NCBI RefSeq assembly: GCF_000384215.1
Contig: NZ_KB913032.1
Location: 6,471,605 to 6,535,604 of the forward strand
Source of the DNA: Amycolatopsis alba DSM 44262
GTDB lineage: Bacteria; Actinomycetota; Actinomycetes; Mycobacteriales; Pseudonocardiaceae
Direction: 5' to 3'
Length of the DNA: 64,000 nt
Of this stretch, positions 23,115 through 27,772 are shown in pieces. Below the pieces are notes generated by a model. The model searched no databases and was not told where the DNA came from. It worked only from the letters and a program-made list of their open reading frames with translations. Both the position numbers and the translations under genes were made by a program. Numbering within the stretch: position 1 is the stretch's first letter; each line of letters begins with the position of its first letter.

Positions 23115-23210
23115 TGACAGGAACCGCGTTAGCATCCCGTGCAGTGAATCGTTGACAACCCGTGGGGGTCACGGGTCTCACCTTCCCTGCCTTGAAAGGT
23201 GTTCCTGTCA
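23115..23210 (+). promoter_or_regulatory. Structured 5' leader closed by a 10-bp stem
   Basis: TGACAGGAAC (23115-23124) is perfectly complementary to GTTCCTGTCA (23201-23210), whose last base is the A of the peptidase ATG. Inside are CCCGTG/CACGGG (around 23159-23174) and CACCTT/AAGGTG (23178-23201), the latter covering the GAAAGG ribosome site. This layout is riboswitch-like, but conserved cores of the c-di-AMP (ydaO) class are not recognisable. Confidence 0.5.
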
Positions 23211-23968
23211 TGCGCATTCGTTTCCTCCTGCCGATGCTCGCCCTCGTGGCGGGCCTCGGTACCGCGGTGGCCACCCCGGCCGCCGCCGATCCCGGCCCGG
23301 TGACGGCGGGCGACGTCGCCGCCTCCGACGCCTGTTACAGCTGGGGACGCACGCTGTCCCAGGGGGCGTCCGGTGAGGACGTCCGGCAACTGCAGATCCG
23401 GGTCGCCGGTTACCCCGGTTACGGTGGCGTGCTCGCCATCGACGGCCAGTTCGGCGCGGGCACCAAGGCCGCGGTCACCCGCTTCCAGCAGGCGTACGGG
23501 CTTGGCGCGGACGGCATCGCCGGACCGGCCACGTTCACGAAGATCTACGCCTTGCAGGACAACGACTGCTCGCCGGTCAACTTCACCTTCGCCGAACTGA
23601 ACCGGTGCAACTCCGACTGGTCGGGCGGCAACGTCTCACCCGCGACGGCGAAGGCCAACGCGCTGGTGTCGATGTGGAAGCTGCAGGCGATGCGGCACGC
23701 CATGGGTGACCGGCCGATCGCCGTGAACGGCGGCTTCCGCAGCGTCGCCTGCAACAACGCGGTCGGCGGAGCGGCCGCCAGCCGTCATCTCTACGGCGAC
23801 GCCGTCGACCTCGGGGCGGGCTCGCAGGGCTTCTGCGGGCTGGCCAAGCAGGCCCGCAACCACGGGTTCAGTGAGATCCTCGGGCCGGGCTACCCCGGCC
23901 ACAGCGACCACACGCACGTGGCTCACCGGGCCAACCGGTTCTGGTCGGCATCGTCCTGCGGGATCTGA
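23210..23968 (+). CDS. Secreted peptidoglycan-binding M15 peptidase (D,D-carboxypeptidase type)
   Basis: 252 aa. Sec signal (residues 1-26, MRIRFLLPMLALVAGLGTAV then ATPAAA). A PG_binding_1 domain (about 40-110: EDVRQLQIRVAGYPGYGG, FGAGTKAAVTRFQQAYGLGA). An M15 catalytic domain with zinc motifs SRHLYGDAVDLG and HSDHTHVAH. It trims or cleaves peptidoglycan stem peptides outside the cell. Six cysteines suggest disulfides. Start: ATG 23210 with GAAAGG 10 bp upstream. Confidence 0.9.
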   Translation: MRIRFLLPMLALVAGLGTAVATPAAADPGPVTAGDVAASDACYSWGRTLSQGASGEDVRQLQIRVAGYPGYGGVLAIDGQFGAGTKAAVTRFQQAYGLGADGIAGPATFTKIYALQDNDCSPVNFTFAELNRCNSDWSGGNVSPATAKANALVSMWKLQAMRHAMGDRPIAVNGGFRSVACNNAVGGAAASRHLYGDAVDLGAGSQGFCGLAKQARNHGFSEILGPGYPGHSDHTHVAHRANRFWSASSCGI

Positions 23969-23974
23969 CCGGCG

Positions 23975-24607
23975 TCATTCCCAGCGCCACAACGACGGCG
24001 GCCGTCCTCCCTTGGGGAGGGCGGCCGCGTGTTCCGTCGTACGCCTCAACCCAGGGACGCGCTCCATGATCCGGCCGAGATTGGCCGGGTAGGGGCGGTC
24101 CCCGGTGAGTGCTTCGGTCGCGTCCAGCGCCTGCGCCGTGGTGAAGACCGGGCCCAGCAGCCCGGCGGTGAAGGCGACGTCCCGCCACAGCTTGTCCGCC
24201 AGCAGCGGACGGCAATCCGCGACGATCCGGTCGTGGTCGAAAGCCAGCGGCGGCACCTCGTTCAACGGAGTCCACACCACGTTCCCCGGCTCGTCGAGCG
24301 CGGGGGACGTGGTGGCCCACAAGGCGATCGAAAGCGTCGGGCCACGGGGATCACGGTTCGGCTCGTCGAAGGTGGCGAGCTGTCCCGTCGCCGAGAGCGC
24401 GTCCGGCGGCAGCCCAAGTTTGGTGACGGCCGCCCGCCCCGCCGCGTCCCGCAGCCGCTCCCCGAGCCCGAGCAGCACCCCCGGCAGGGCGAGCTCCCCG
24501 GCGAACGGCTCGGCGGCTCGCGGCGCGATTCCCAGCAGCACGGTCCTGGTGCCGGGGGCGAACCGCACCACGAGCACGTCAACGGACACCGGCGTCGACT
24601 CGATCAC
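23975..24607 (-). CDS. Nudix-fold protein without catalytic Nudix box
   Basis: 210 aa. VDVLVVRFAPGTRTVLLGIA and ELALPGVLLGLGERLRDAAG correspond to the Nudix fold, but the box reads RAAVTKLGL where REXXEEXGU is required, so the metal-binding glutamates are missing and hydrolysis is unlikely. It may bind a nucleotide, as Nudix-fold regulators such as NrtR do, but no DNA-binding domain is obvious. Start GTG overlaps the stop of the PurA-like gene (GTGA). Last gene of the J-pseudokinase/vWA/PurA-like operon. Confidence 0.75.
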   Translation of the reverse strand: MIESTPVSVDVLVVRFAPGTRTVLLGIAPRAAEPFAGELALPGVLLGLGERLRDAAGRAAVTKLGLPPDALSATGQLATFDEPNRDPRGPTLSIALWATTSPALDEPGNVVWTPLNEVPPLAFDHDRIVADCRPLLADKLWRDVAFTAGLLGPVFTTAQALDATEALTGDRPYPANLGRIMERVPGLRRTTEHAAALPKGGRPPSLWRWE

Positions 24608-25794
24608 GCGTTGATTGTCGACCTTGCCCCGGCGACCCGGTAACCCGCCCTGTCCGGGCCGTACCCGGCGACGGCCACCGGCTTCCGCGCGCGGAACCAC
24701 GCGAGTGGGTCCGGCAGGTCGACGGCGGAGCCGTCACCGGGGACGACCTTCAGCCCGGTCGCGTCGAGATGGGTCACCGCGAGCGCGTCCACGCCGTCGC
24801 AGGCCGCGATCGCGTAGTCCAGCAGCGCCTCGTCGAGGTGTCCTGCCCGCCACGCGCCCTGGAACTCGCCGGTTCCGTTGTGCGCCTCGGGAAAGCGGGC
24901 CAGCACGGCGGCGGACTCGGTGGGCAGCGGCCCCGCGCCGTGCCGGGTGAGATAGGTCCGCGTGACCCCCAGGACCGTATGCGGATGTCCGCCCAGCAGC
25001 TCGCGGGCGTTGTGCGGGGTGGTGGTGGACCAGGTCGTATGCGGATGGAACCCGTGGTGCTGGTCGAGGAGAACCCCCTGCGCTCCCTCGAAAACCAGCC
25101 GCCCGGCCGCCGCGAGCCGTGCTGTCTCGTCCCCGCCGGTGATCCGCACCGCGCCCGCGAAATCGCGGTACAGCGCCACCAGTTCGTCCACGCCGTGCGA
25201 CGGCGTGGCGAGCGGGGCGTAGAACCGCGCGAGCGCGTCCAGTTTGCGCCGCAGCACCGACGGCCGCACGCAGTCGGCGACCGTGGGCGCTTCCCCCGGC
25301 GTCCCGATCACCTCCTGGTTCTCCACCACCTCACCCGGCACGGCCCCGGACAGCAGCGAGTACCAGACGGTCTCGCCGATGCCCTTCCCGCACGAGCCGT
25401 GCCGCCGCGCGCCGCGGGCCTCCTCCCTTGCCCGGTTGGCGTGGATGTGGAACGGCGTCGTGAGCAGCGCACGACCGTCCACACTCAGCAGCGAGAGCGG
25501 GTCCCGGACGCCGCTGCTTTCGAGCTGTCGCGCTTCCGCCGCCAGCGCGAACGGCTCGACCAGCACGAACCGCGACAGGTGGGTGGGCACGCCGGCGAAC
25601 GTGCCCGCCCCGAACTGGCTGAAGGTGTGGTGCCGTCCGTCCACGACGACGTTGTGCGCGGCCTGCGCGCCCCCGTTGAAGCGGACGACGGCGGTGGTGG
25701 GCCGGTCGGCGCAGAGCGCGTCGACCACGGCCCCCTTGCCCTCGTCGCCGAACCCGAGCCCGACCACCACCACGTGCCCGTCCAGGAGGCTCAC
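24604..25794 (-). CDS. Divergent adenylosuccinate synthetase-like enzyme
   Basis: 396 aa, full-length PurA fold. Conserved: VVVGLGFGDEGKGAVVDAL (P-loop and base), RFNGGAQAAHNVVV (catalytic His region), VFEGAQGVLLDQHHG and AGYGPDR at the C-terminus. Changed: the IMP loop GTTGRGIGPAY reads GSCGKGIGETVWYS, the aspartate loop TTGRRRRTGW reads GTGEFQGAWRAG, and guanine-contact TKLD reads THLD. It therefore probably joins or phosphorylates different substrates from housekeeping PurA. Start GTG overlaps the vWA stop. Function unknown; position in a signalling-type operon suggests a dedicated nucleotide product. Confidence 0.82.
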   Translation of the reverse strand: MSLLDGHVVVVGLGFGDEGKGAVVDALCADRPTTAVVRFNGGAQAAHNVVVDGRHHTFSQFGAGTFAGVPTHLSRFVLVEPFALAAEARQLESSGVRDPLSLLSVDGRALLTTPFHIHANRAREEARGARRHGSCGKGIGETVWYSLLSGAVPGEVVENQEVIGTPGEAPTVADCVRPSVLRRKLDALARFYAPLATPSHGVDELVALYRDFAGAVRITGGDETARLAAAGRLVFEGAQGVLLDQHHGFHPHTTWSTTTPHNARELLGGHPHTVLGVTRTYLTRHGAGPLPTESAAVLARFPEAHNGTGEFQGAWRAGHLDEALLDYAIAACDGVDALAVTHLDATGLKVVPGDGSAVDLPDPLAWFRARKPVAVAGYGPDRAGYRVAGARSTINA

Positions 25795-26765
25795 CGCAGC
25801 ACCACGTCGCTCGGGCCGTCCGGCTCGGGCACCGCCGAGGTGACGACCGATTTGGCGCCCAGTTTCGCCAGCGCCTTGCCGACAGCCTTGCTCTCGGCGA
25901 CCGAGCCGATGTCCGCGAGGTCGGTGAGCGCCCGGTCGACGTCGACGACCCGTTCCTCCAGCCCGATCGTGGCCGCGATCAGTTCGCACACCGCGCCGGG
26001 ATCGTCGAGTTTGAGGAAGTTCTGGCCGAGCAGGCCGCTCCAGTGCTCGCCGATCTCCGGGTCGTTGTAGTACGAGGACTGGTTCGGCAGCACGAAGTAG
26101 ACGTGCCACTTGCGGGCCAGCTCCCGGTACACCGACGCCGGGTCGATGTCCTCTCGCACGTCGTCGCCGAGCACACGGCGGATGTGGCGTGCCTCCAGCG
26201 CGGGCTTGTTCAGCTCGTCGCCGATGAGGAACAGATAGCCCTTGCGGCCGCGGTTCTGCCACGCGTCGGTCACCACGTGCCGGGCCATGAAGTAGGCGGC
26301 CAGCTCGTAGGACTCGCTCTTCTGCCCGCCACCACCGCCTTCGAGGAACATCGTGCGCAGCTGCTCGTCCATCCGGTTGTCCGATTCGAACTGCCCGATC
26401 TGCAACGGGACCCGGTCGCTGTCGGCGTCGCCGATCGCGCCGAACAGCACCTGCGGATCGGCCAGGTACCCGCGGCGCTTCAGCAGGCCGTGCAGTTTGC
26501 CGAGTTTGCCCTGCATGATCCGCGGTACCCGGCGCATCGAGCCGGTGACGTCGAACAGCACCGCGATCGGCGTCGAATCGGTGTGGTCGGCTGAATCCCG
26601 GCATTCCCGGACGGCGTTCCGCGGGTCGAGCGCGGCCGCGGCCTTCCAGTCTTTCGCGGGTTTGGCGCGGAGGTCGGCGCTGTAGCCGAAATCGTCCTCG
26701 CCCTTGGCCGCGCGGAAGGTCTTCGCGGCGGCGTAGGCGTTGTCGTCCCAGTGTCCGTGTCCCAT
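25791..26765 (-). CDS. von Willebrand factor A-domain protein
   Basis: 324 aa, cytosolic. A MIDAS-like motif PIAVLFDVTGSMRRVPRIMQ (D-x-T-x-S) lies near residue 75, with a later acidic loop LFLIGDELNKPA. A Gly-rich loop (FLEGGGGGQKSE) lies between. The C-terminal part is helical. Placed 2 bp after the J-pseudokinase gene and overlapping the PurA-like gene by 4 bp, so stoichiometric co-expression is likely. vWA-plus-kinase pairs are known in stress and conflict systems; here it may scaffold or switch the enzyme. Confidence 0.85.
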   Translation of the reverse strand: MGHGHWDDNAYAAAKTFRAAKGEDDFGYSADLRAKPAKDWKAAAALDPRNAVRECRDSADHTDSTPIAVLFDVTGSMRRVPRIMQGKLGKLHGLLKRRGYLADPQVLFGAIGDADSDRVPLQIGQFESDNRMDEQLRTMFLEGGGGGQKSESYELAAYFMARHVVTDAWQNRGRKGYLFLIGDELNKPALEARHIRRVLGDDVREDIDPASVYRELARKWHVYFVLPNQSSYYNDPEIGEHWSGLLGQNFLKLDDPGAVCELIAATIGLEERVVDVDRALTDLADIGSVAESKAVGKALAKLGAKSVVTSAVPEPDGPSDVVLR

Positions 26766-26767
26766 GG

Positions 26768-27736
26768 TCAGGCTCCTGTCTCGGGGATGAGGAAAGGGCG
26801 GAAGGTGCGGGGGCCGTACAGCTCGCCGAGCAGGCAGTCGTACTCGTCGAGCAGGTCGGCCGCGTCGGGTCGCTGTGCCGGGTCGTCCTGCGTGCACCAC
26901 CTGGCGAACTCGCGTTGGCGGGTTTCTCCGTGCGCCAGCAGGGAAAGCATCAGGCTGTGGAGCATGTGGACGTCGGTGGCCGCGGTCATCGGCAGTCCCT
27001 TGTGGACTTCCGGTGGGTACTCGGCGGAGTTGTCCACCGCCAGCGGCAGAGTGCCGCTTTCGACGGCGAAGGACCAGCCGATCAGGACGATGCCGTGTTG
27101 TCCGGGATGGACGAGCACGTTGTCCGCGGTGAGGTGGCCGTGGACGACCCCCGCGCGGTGCGCGCCCGCGACGGCGCGCAGCAGACGCCGGTGCATCCAG
27201 GCGTAATCGCGGCCGTCGAGCCCGTCCGGGAAGGCCTTCCCGATCTCGGCGAGGGTGGTGAACCCGTCGACGAGCGGATCGAGGACGCTGAACGCGCGGT
27301 CGCCCCGCGCCACCGGGCCCGAGGTGTCGAGCAGCCGCGGATAGTAGGGGCGAAGCCAGCGGTGCCGTTCGGTGAAGCCGTCGAGCGTGCGCAACGCCGT
27401 CCACTCGGCGTGGACGAGCGGGTTGAGCGCCGGGTCGCGGACGAGTTTGACCAGATGCGGTCCGGTGGTGCGGTAAGTCGTCGCGACACTGCCCACGGCG
27501 TGCGGGGTCGTGAGGGTGTACGCCGATGTCGCCGTGGTGACGGTCTGGCGCCGGGCGCGTTTCCAGTCGTCGTAGCGGCGATTGAGGACCGCGGCCGCCT
27601 GGTGTGCCCGCTTGTCGCCGGGGTTGCGGTCGGGATGGAGCGCCGCCGCCAGGTCGCGGTAGCGATGGTGGGCGAACAGTGTTGCCGCGTCGACCGAGTT
27701 CTCGATCAGTGTCACGGCGTCGTCCCTGGTGAGCAT
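26768..27736 (-). CDS. J-domain/protein pseudokinase fusion
   Basis: 322 aa. Residues ~18-60 form a J-like domain with the HPD tripeptide (YRDLAAALHPDRNPGDKRAH). A protein-kinase-like domain follows: putative VAIK lysine in HLVKLVRDP and an alpha-C Glu in HAEWTALRTL. The catalytic loop is HGHLTADNVLV (HRD Asp replaced by His), and DFG is replaced by IGW (GIVLIGWSFAVESG). It is thus probably a pseudokinase that could recruit DnaK through the J domain. First gene of the operon. The ATG lies 6 nt after a -10-like TAGACT, so the mRNA may be leaderless. Confidence 0.82.
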   Translation of the reverse strand: MLTRDDAVTLIENSVDAATLFAHHRYRDLAAALHPDRNPGDKRAHQAAAVLNRRYDDWKRARRQTVTTATSAYTLTTPHAVGSVATTYRTTGPHLVKLVRDPALNPLVHAEWTALRTLDGFTERHRWLRPYYPRLLDTSGPVARGDRAFSVLDPLVDGFTTLAEIGKAFPDGLDGRDYAWMHRRLLRAVAGAHRAGVVHGHLTADNVLVHPGQHGIVLIGWSFAVESGTLPLAVDNSAEYPPEVHKGLPMTAATDVHMLHSLMLSLLAHGETRQREFARWCTQDDPAQRPDAADLLDEYDCLLGELYGPRTFRPFLIPETGA

Positions 27737-27742
27737 AGTTTG

Positions 27743-27772
27743 AGTCTAGACGACTCTTACCTGGGGCGGCAA
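27743..27772 (-). promoter_or_regulatory. Promoter of the J-pseudokinase operon, probably leaderless
   Basis: On the minus strand TTGCCG (27772-27767), an 18-nt spacer and TAGACT (27748-27743) are followed after 6 nt by the ATG. That spacing places transcription start on the start codon. GAGTC/GACTC (27742-27746, 27752-27756) form a small dyad over the -10. Confidence 0.6.

Follow-up and report, generated by a model that had tools for sequence, protein, structure and literature searches.

Adenylosuccinate synthetase (PurA) has a relative in phages, the PurZ/PurZ0 of Z-genome phages; in the excerpts of PMC12884076 used here, 147 of 481 phage proteins of the PF00709 family are PurZ, which carries a serine at position 13. 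Transcription factors of the NrtR/AraR type join a Nudix domain to a C-terminal winged helix, and the excerpted part of PMC6800001 describes Mycobacterium smegmatis NrtR binding to GTTTTCGA-N7-TCGAAAAC and being released by ADP-ribose at 50 mM. Nudix–helix-turn-helix regulators and vWA chaperones have been proposed to act in ARG-centred ADP-ribosylation conflict systems (PMC9503650, in part), and TerY-P-like modules of vWA protein, kinase and phosphatase have been reported as antiphage (PMC11090510, in part). Here we analysed a stretch of 64,000 nucleotides from Amycolatopsis alba DSM 44262 (hereafter the window; contig NZ_KB913032.1, positions 6,471,605 to 6,535,604), which carries on its minus strand, at 27736-23975, an operon of four genes encoding a J-domain pseudokinase, a vWA-type protein, a PurA-like enzyme and a Nudix-fold protein.

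Like the ARG-centred systems, the operon combines a Nudix regulator with a vWA protein, but it lacks a conserved ADP-ribosylglycohydrolase or phosphatase family, and the main text of PMC9503650 gave 0 matches for adenylosuccinate or PurA. As in TerY-P triads, the vWA protein is paired with a kinase-fold protein; here, however, the kinase is fused to a J-domain and has no HRD aspartate, and a PurA-like enzyme is added. A PP2C gene does not appear to be conserved at the module, where no further family recurs in most loci, the neighbours not all having been scanned for PP2C. We recognized no description of the four-gene combination in the literature searched, subscription journals being outside its reach.

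Gene content in bacteria, phages and plasmids

Judged by sequence comparison, the operon is the bacterial form of an uncharacterized module shared with large tailed phages. Among 298 genomes of the order, the PurA-like protein (E<=1e-40) occurs in 56, spread over 10 of 76 genera, and these are exactly the genomes of this first sample that have the vWA gene (lists compared by eye). A profile of the vWA family found 82 of 397 genomes (11 of 85 genera); the single vWA sequence, searched across the phylum, matched 2 of 396, its own genome among the two. With the vWA protein as query, we retrieved named actinobacterial loci (best 80 of 469). The PurA-like gene comes after the vWA gene in 79 of them, and 78 have a Nudix match; the loci missing either one lie at contig ends. 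The preliminary description had named a conserved neighbourhood as a check on its idea, and the genes indeed travel together. A match to the J-pseudokinase occurs in 49 of the 80 loci; upstream sequence is short in a few of the remaining 31. With overlapping reading frames excluded, the next shared neighbour family reaches 31/80 loci, and neighbours vary with genus. In 19 longer regions, taken from genomes of other families that carry the module, the Nudix gene was always present, first in the operon in 14, and the J-pseudokinase was present in 15. Micromonospora-like families, which short flanks had made to appear devoid of the regulator, were dropped as exceptions, the Nudix gene being first in the operon there.

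Because several genomes without the J-pseudokinase keep the rest, the vWA protein and the PurA-like enzyme form the core. Bacteria, as far as gene content tells, add a regulator to this core, with the J-pseudokinase as a frequent partner.

The same core was abundant in viral sequences. In IMG/VR, 454 stretches encode a vWA relative, and among the best 80 loci the PurA-like gene is present in 79, the J-pseudokinase in 67 and a Nudix relative in 2; a viral scan with a single Agrobacterium vWA sequence returned nothing useful. Over 88 viral and plasmid loci, the vWA, PurA-like and J-pseudokinase families occur in 88, 87 and 73, respectively. The clusters covering 58, 41 and 17 loci consist of reading frames nested in the module genes; the next genuine neighbour family reaches 16/88. 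The vWA gene is present in 207 annotated phage records, and Mycobacterium phage records match the vWA protein in 188 cases and the PurA-like protein in 189. Bixzunavirus Gizmo has the order kinase, vWA, small protein, PurA-like with operon-like overlaps; its small gene (L134 7017-7283) overlaps the vWA and PurA-like genes by 4 bp each. Rhizobium and Vibrio phages carry vWA plus PurA-like genes. The grouping therefore goes beyond chance, given the conserved order in named genomes, the co-occurrence in the same 56 genomes and the recurrence in phages. Kuttervirus vWA and adenylosuccinate synthase genes (PMC10892097, in part) were considered as the same module and dropped, there being no Salmonella or Kuttervirus among the organisms of the vWA search. 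We suppose that the roughly 330 remaining phage PF00709 homologues of the excerpted PMC12884076 survey are mostly members of the vWA/PurA-like module.

All three of J-pseudokinase, vWA and PurA-like genes are found on plasmids of Agrobacterium, Acetobacter, Variovorax, Rhizobium and Tsukamurella; in 4/5 a Nudix match lies close by (none was seen in Variovorax). Rhodococcus plasmids match the vWA protein, the comparison there covering the vWA gene alone. Two loci showed particular arrangements. The copy in a 416-kb viral contig (L164 5228-11608) is unusual among viral ones in having a regulator of its own: an NrtR-type gene lies just ahead of the vWA gene, and the J-pseudokinase follows the PurA-like gene. 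In Agrobacterium vitis (L137 10301-16696), genes annotated as AAA ATPase, DUF5682 and DUF4132 lie directly downstream of the module.

We built a tree of 69 chosen PurA-like rows, rooted at the midpoint and containing one very long PurZ branch. Canonical PurA was supported at 96/96 and a separate module group at 83/93 (not starred). The bacterial copies, proteobacterial and actinobacterial, nest in two places among viral rows, while a single viral row is placed, weakly, within the actinobacterial group.

The PurA-like enzyme and its partners

The PurA-like protein matches PF00709 (E 3.1e-57) and phrog_1211 (E 1.2e-65), but stays below the equivalog cut-offs for PurA (TIGR00184, 125.6 versus 395.55 bits; NF002223, 149.3 versus 402) and the cut-off of the PurZ model (33.3 versus 300 bits). 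A separate, ordinary purA was found in the host genome, scoring 600 bits against 193 for the PurA-like copy, which disposes of the concern raised at the outset that the PurA-like gene might be the only purA. The two proteins are about 30% identical, and both paralogues were present in 5/5 further module genomes searched.

To compare residues, we mapped 205 module rows (188 distinct; 116 actinobacterial, 82 viral and 7 proteobacterial) onto the numbering of E. coli K-12 PurA; the roles of the catalytic residues in this mapping, Asp13 excepted, are our assumption. D13 and K16 are retained in 204/204 rows with a letter, H41 and Q224 in all 205, T239 in 203 (Ser in the other 2) and the guanine aspartate D333 in 202/204. 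New residues are almost as uniform: Q replaces N38 in 203/204 rows, H replaces V273 in 205/205 and I126 in 199/205, and T129 is replaced, mostly by C or V. What we take to be the L-aspartate loop, T301/R303/R305, stands opposite gaps in 205/205 module rows and is present in 9/9 canonical rows, a result that depends on the alignment. R143, presumably the ligand of the 5'-phosphate of inosine monophosphate (IMP), is Arg in 4 of 197 module rows with a letter there. The enzyme differs from PurA further in lying on the opposite side of the tree and in adjoining a vWA gene in every locus checked save one cut by a contig end. It had been described as keeping the GDEGKG and GPDR motifs with altered substrate loops: both motifs are there and the aspartate loop is lost, while the change of the guanine loop stood only by half, K331 being His and D333 being kept.

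Module proteins have Asp at position 13, in contrast to the serine of PurZ (S13 in phiVC8 PurZ), and PurZ-type synthesis of Z-DNA was dropped on this ground. By these sequence criteria, the enzyme is neither PurA nor PurZ, and is a distinct paralogue beside ordinary purA. Loss of the aspartate loop and Arg143 fits an altered substrate without naming which.

The vWA protein matches phrog_2971 (E 2.8e-70) in PHROGs and has what we take to be a MIDAS-like motif, DVTGS...S/T...GDE. Pfam and NCBIfam scans gave no match for it, and a PDB profile search with the family reached a best E of only 0.56. A structure model (predicted local distance difference test score, pLDDT, 84.2) predicts an alpha/beta fold.

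The first-gene protein matches DnaJ (7e-4) and Pkinase (2e-3), both below Pfam cut-offs, and phrog_3043, a kinase family (E 1e-23). It contains HPD, with HGH in place of HRD and GWS in place of DFG, so that its reading as a pseudokinase with an intact J-motif holds. Among 105 distinct rows (59 actinobacterial, 3 proteobacterial, 43 viral), HPD is retained in 59/59, 3/3 and 37/43, respectively, 3 of the other viral rows being gaps. The HRD aspartate is missing from 59/59 actinobacterial and 3/3 proteobacterial rows and is present, as HCD, in 2/43 viral ones.

The Nudix regulator and the promoter palindrome

Residues 8-179 of the Nudix protein align to AraR (5bs6, E 3.8e-10), and residues 23-181 to 3gz5 (E 9.9e-5), listed as a MutT/nudix family protein and taken by us to be Shewanella NrtR. 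A weak match to the NCBIfam ADP-ribose repressor (E 2.3e-4) is far below its cut-off. The structure model (pLDDT 89.8) consists of strands and one helix, followed by three helices (144-151, 157-168, 174-182) and two terminal strands (187-193, 205-209). The family profile aligned 184 columns of the Agrobacterium protein at 98.6% probability, and that protein exceeds the Pfam cut-off for the NrtR winged helix (NrtR_WHD, PF21906), as do 7 of 8 further relatives scanned; 5 of 26 family rows match at E<=0.01, and two other proteins of the host genome match NrtR_WHD. In our reading, the window's Nudix box keeps Glu50 and carries substitutions at three acidic positions and at the box Gly, so that a box said to lack its acidic residues lacks three of them. 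By the same reading, the box is intact in 13 of 14 operon-first regulators, L247 having His for the last Gly.

The label of an inactive Nudix-fold protein was thus insufficient: alignment to AraR and 3gz5 over most of its length, with the structure model and the family profile, suggests that the fourth protein is a divergent Nudix regulator of the NrtR/AraR type with a probable C-terminal winged helix. Since it belongs with these transcription factors, it most likely regulates the operon. It differs from NrtR and AraR in that the module's neighbours are not NAD (nicotinamide adenine dinucleotide) or sugar genes. In Prescottella, some 3 kb past the module, there is a second NrtR-like gene (L095 8679-9215), whose product shares 30% identity with the Nudix protein of the window.

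Directly ahead of the first module gene, over the -10 element, lies a 23-bp palindrome, GTTTNAGT-N7-ACTNAAAC, usually with one close match per genome. Many Pseudonocardiaceae have GTTTGAGT-N7-ACTCAAAC, and many Nocardia and Rhodococcus GTTTTAGT-N7-ACTAAAAC. Of 84 bacterial loci, 41 have a perfect 8-N7-8 palindrome just before the operon's first gene, against 0.28 expected, 2/83 internal controls and 0/82 viral loci; we read 37 of the 41 as the module operator motif and the others as different hairpins. Many relatives pair at 8/8 arm positions. The window's own copy pairs at 6/8, alone no better than chance, and was recognized by place and sequence. Sites with <=2 mismatches occur at the module in 11/11 genomes and are the sole such site in 10, G076 having one other with 1 mismatch. 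The M. smegmatis NrtR site in the excerpted PMC6800001 is likewise a 23-bp 8-N7-8 palindrome with outer GTTT...AAAC; its inner sequence is different.

These observations suggest that the bacterial module is probably under repressor control. A wider regulon was dropped as a candidate: the 11 genomes contain 29 other sites on one strand against 31 for a control with the pattern reversed, of which one genome contributes 15, so that an excess of operator sites is neither shown nor excluded. In L243, a longer nested palindrome (GTTCTTCTCA ... TGAGAAGAAC) replaces the 23-bp one upstream of the Nudix gene, and related, less regular sequences were seen by eye upstream of other operon-first regulators.

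Coordinates are given below. The junctions, one 2-bp gap and then two 4-bp overlaps, together with TAGACT confirm the close gene joins described behind one leaderless-type promoter, and the spacing of TAGACT to the ATG is compatible with a leaderless transcript.

Features of the operon and its promoter, in window positions
Feature	Position	Strand	Remarks
J-domain pseudokinase gene	26768..27736	-	322 aa; first gene; ATG, leaderless-type
vWA-type gene	25791..26765	-	324 aa; 2-bp gap after J-pseudokinase gene
PurA-like enzyme gene	24604..25794	-	396 aa; GTG start; 4-bp overlap with vWA gene
NrtR/AraR-type Nudix and probable winged-helix regulator gene	23975..24607	-	210 aa; GTG; 4-bp overlap; degenerate Nudix box
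Predicted operator	27738..27760	-	23 bp, GTAAGAGTCGTCTAGACTCAAAC; 6 of 8 arm pairs match
-10-like element TAGACT	27743..27748	-	within predicted operator, 6 nt ahead of ATG; consensus reading

Proposed mechanism and alternatives

We propose that the Nudix regulator occupies the palindrome over the -10 element and thereby would block transcription, until a nucleotide-type ligand binds the regulator and frees the promoter; for NrtR, ADP-ribose is the known example. The PurA-like enzyme is probably still GTP-using (guanosine triphosphate), because the phosphoryl-transfer residues and the guanine-binding aspartate are kept. It would probably phosphorylate a carbonyl oxygen with GTP, acting neither on IMP nor with L-aspartate. 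The vWA protein, as a putative metal-dependent peptide binder, and the J-pseudokinase, acting through DnaK, would probably deliver the target or keep it in place. As the likely role, we suggest a reaction to stress of the nucleotide or NAD type, of the kind that phage infection brings; phages would use the module for themselves, and bacteria would keep it repressed. We give this whole reading a probability of about 0.45: a machine of phage descent that uses GTP, has neither IMP nor aspartate as substrate and is kept under NrtR-type repression until a nucleotide-type signal arrives. If true, the routine name adenylosuccinate synthetase covers a new enzyme activity on a vWA/J-protein platform, within a gene set common to some two hundred annotated phage records and many actinobacteria. 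The module would then offer a direct test case of phage machinery turned into a regulated bacterial function, with the operator and regulator as a ready handle on the inducing signal.

Several points weigh against this proposal. We know of no activity, ligand or phenotype on record for the module. The Pfam NrtR winged-helix model misses the window's own Nudix protein, which has diverged below its detection, and finds relatives only. The ADP-ribose level in the gel shift of the excerpted PMC6800001 is, in our judgement, far above cell levels. A phage origin is inferred from a midpoint-rooted tree of 69 rows with a long PurZ branch and module support of 83/93. The DFG aspartate, present in 1/59 actinobacterial rows, is found in about half of the viral pseudokinases, which leaves room for residual binding of nucleotide or metal there. 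The J-pseudokinase was absent elsewhere (E<=1e-6) from 6/6 genomes with a J-less module, two control genomes being positive; four further such genomes comprised three without a copy and one whose weak match (31% identity, E 1.1e-7) we take for another kinase. The J-pseudokinase is therefore accessory, and no chaperone step that depends on it can be essential. Finally, mean identity within Amycolatopsis is 87-94% for the four module genes versus 85-100% for ten neighbours; the module values fall towards the low end of the neighbour range, within its limits, which is no clear sign of an arms race. The idea of a special module in the preliminary description thus gained from the conserved gene set, the promoter-side palindrome and the J-motif pseudokinase, and had to be revised in making the Nudix protein a regulator and the J-pseudokinase an accessory.

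The preliminary description saw a module that makes or senses a non-standard nucleotide. In this vein, the PurA-like enzyme might instead make a modified purine nucleotide, serving as a signal, an antiviral or a protected form, that is sensed by the Nudix regulator, with the vWA protein and the pseudokinase regulating the enzyme. The kept catalytic core and guanine aspartate, the Nudix-type gene in every one of the 19 extended regions and the PHROGs assignment of the enzyme to nucleotide metabolism agree with this, but phages mostly lack the regulator nearby (2 of the best 80 of 454 viral loci have it), no further nucleotide-pathway gene is widely conserved near viral copies, whose neighbours were clustered and not all identified, and Arg143 is almost always lost. 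We regard a modified nucleotide as somewhat unlikely.

We think it unlikely that the module is dedicated to phage conflict, with the bacterial operon as defence and the phage copies as counter-defence or superinfection exclusion. Carriage by phages and plasmids would suit such a role, as would the likeness to the ARG-centred and TerY-P-like proposals introduced above, and in PADLOC the first gene matches kinase-type single-protein models (best MkoA, E 2.9e-8). The vWA, PurA-like and Nudix proteins, however, match no PADLOC antiphage model, no family of effector nucleases or toxins recurs widely next to the module, module identity stays within the neighbour-gene range, and there is one copy per genome among the vWA-profile matches.

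A PurA-like protein that serves as a mere GTP-dependent switch for the vWA protein, without ligation, would explain a retained P-loop and guanine aspartate beside lost amino-acid-binding positions, but we consider it distinctly improbable: His41 and Gln224, whose usual roles are unneeded for plain GTP binding, are invariant, and Q38 and H273 are new, near-invariant polar residues. That the gene is an ordinary adenylosuccinate synthetase duplicate, as its database names and PF00709 match would have it, is hardly credible given the TIGR00184 score, the divergence from the host's own PurA, the aspartate loop missing from every row and the separate clade, and was dropped.

Within our preferred reading of a phage-derived GTP-using machine, a more specific version can be imagined, which we offer as speculation and judge unlikely as worded. 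A third PurA-fold enzyme, together with the vWA protein, would be a phage invention that uses GTP to aminate or phosphorylate a lactam or amide outside free IMP. Its target might be, for instance, a purine that has been damaged or deaminated, within nucleotides or RNA, or an amide of a protein that the vWA/J-protein pair holds. Bacteria would have acquired it from phages at least twice, and NrtR-type sensors would limit its production to times of rising NAD- or nucleotide-type damage products.

The host genome measures 9.81 Mb, and the nearest relatives of its PurA-like and vWA proteins are from Amycolatopsis. Tail-to-tail with the operon lies a plus-strand gene (23210-23968) whose product by eye resembles a peptidoglycan-binding D-Ala-D-Ala peptidase and has a relative in 9/9 Amycolatopsis loci.

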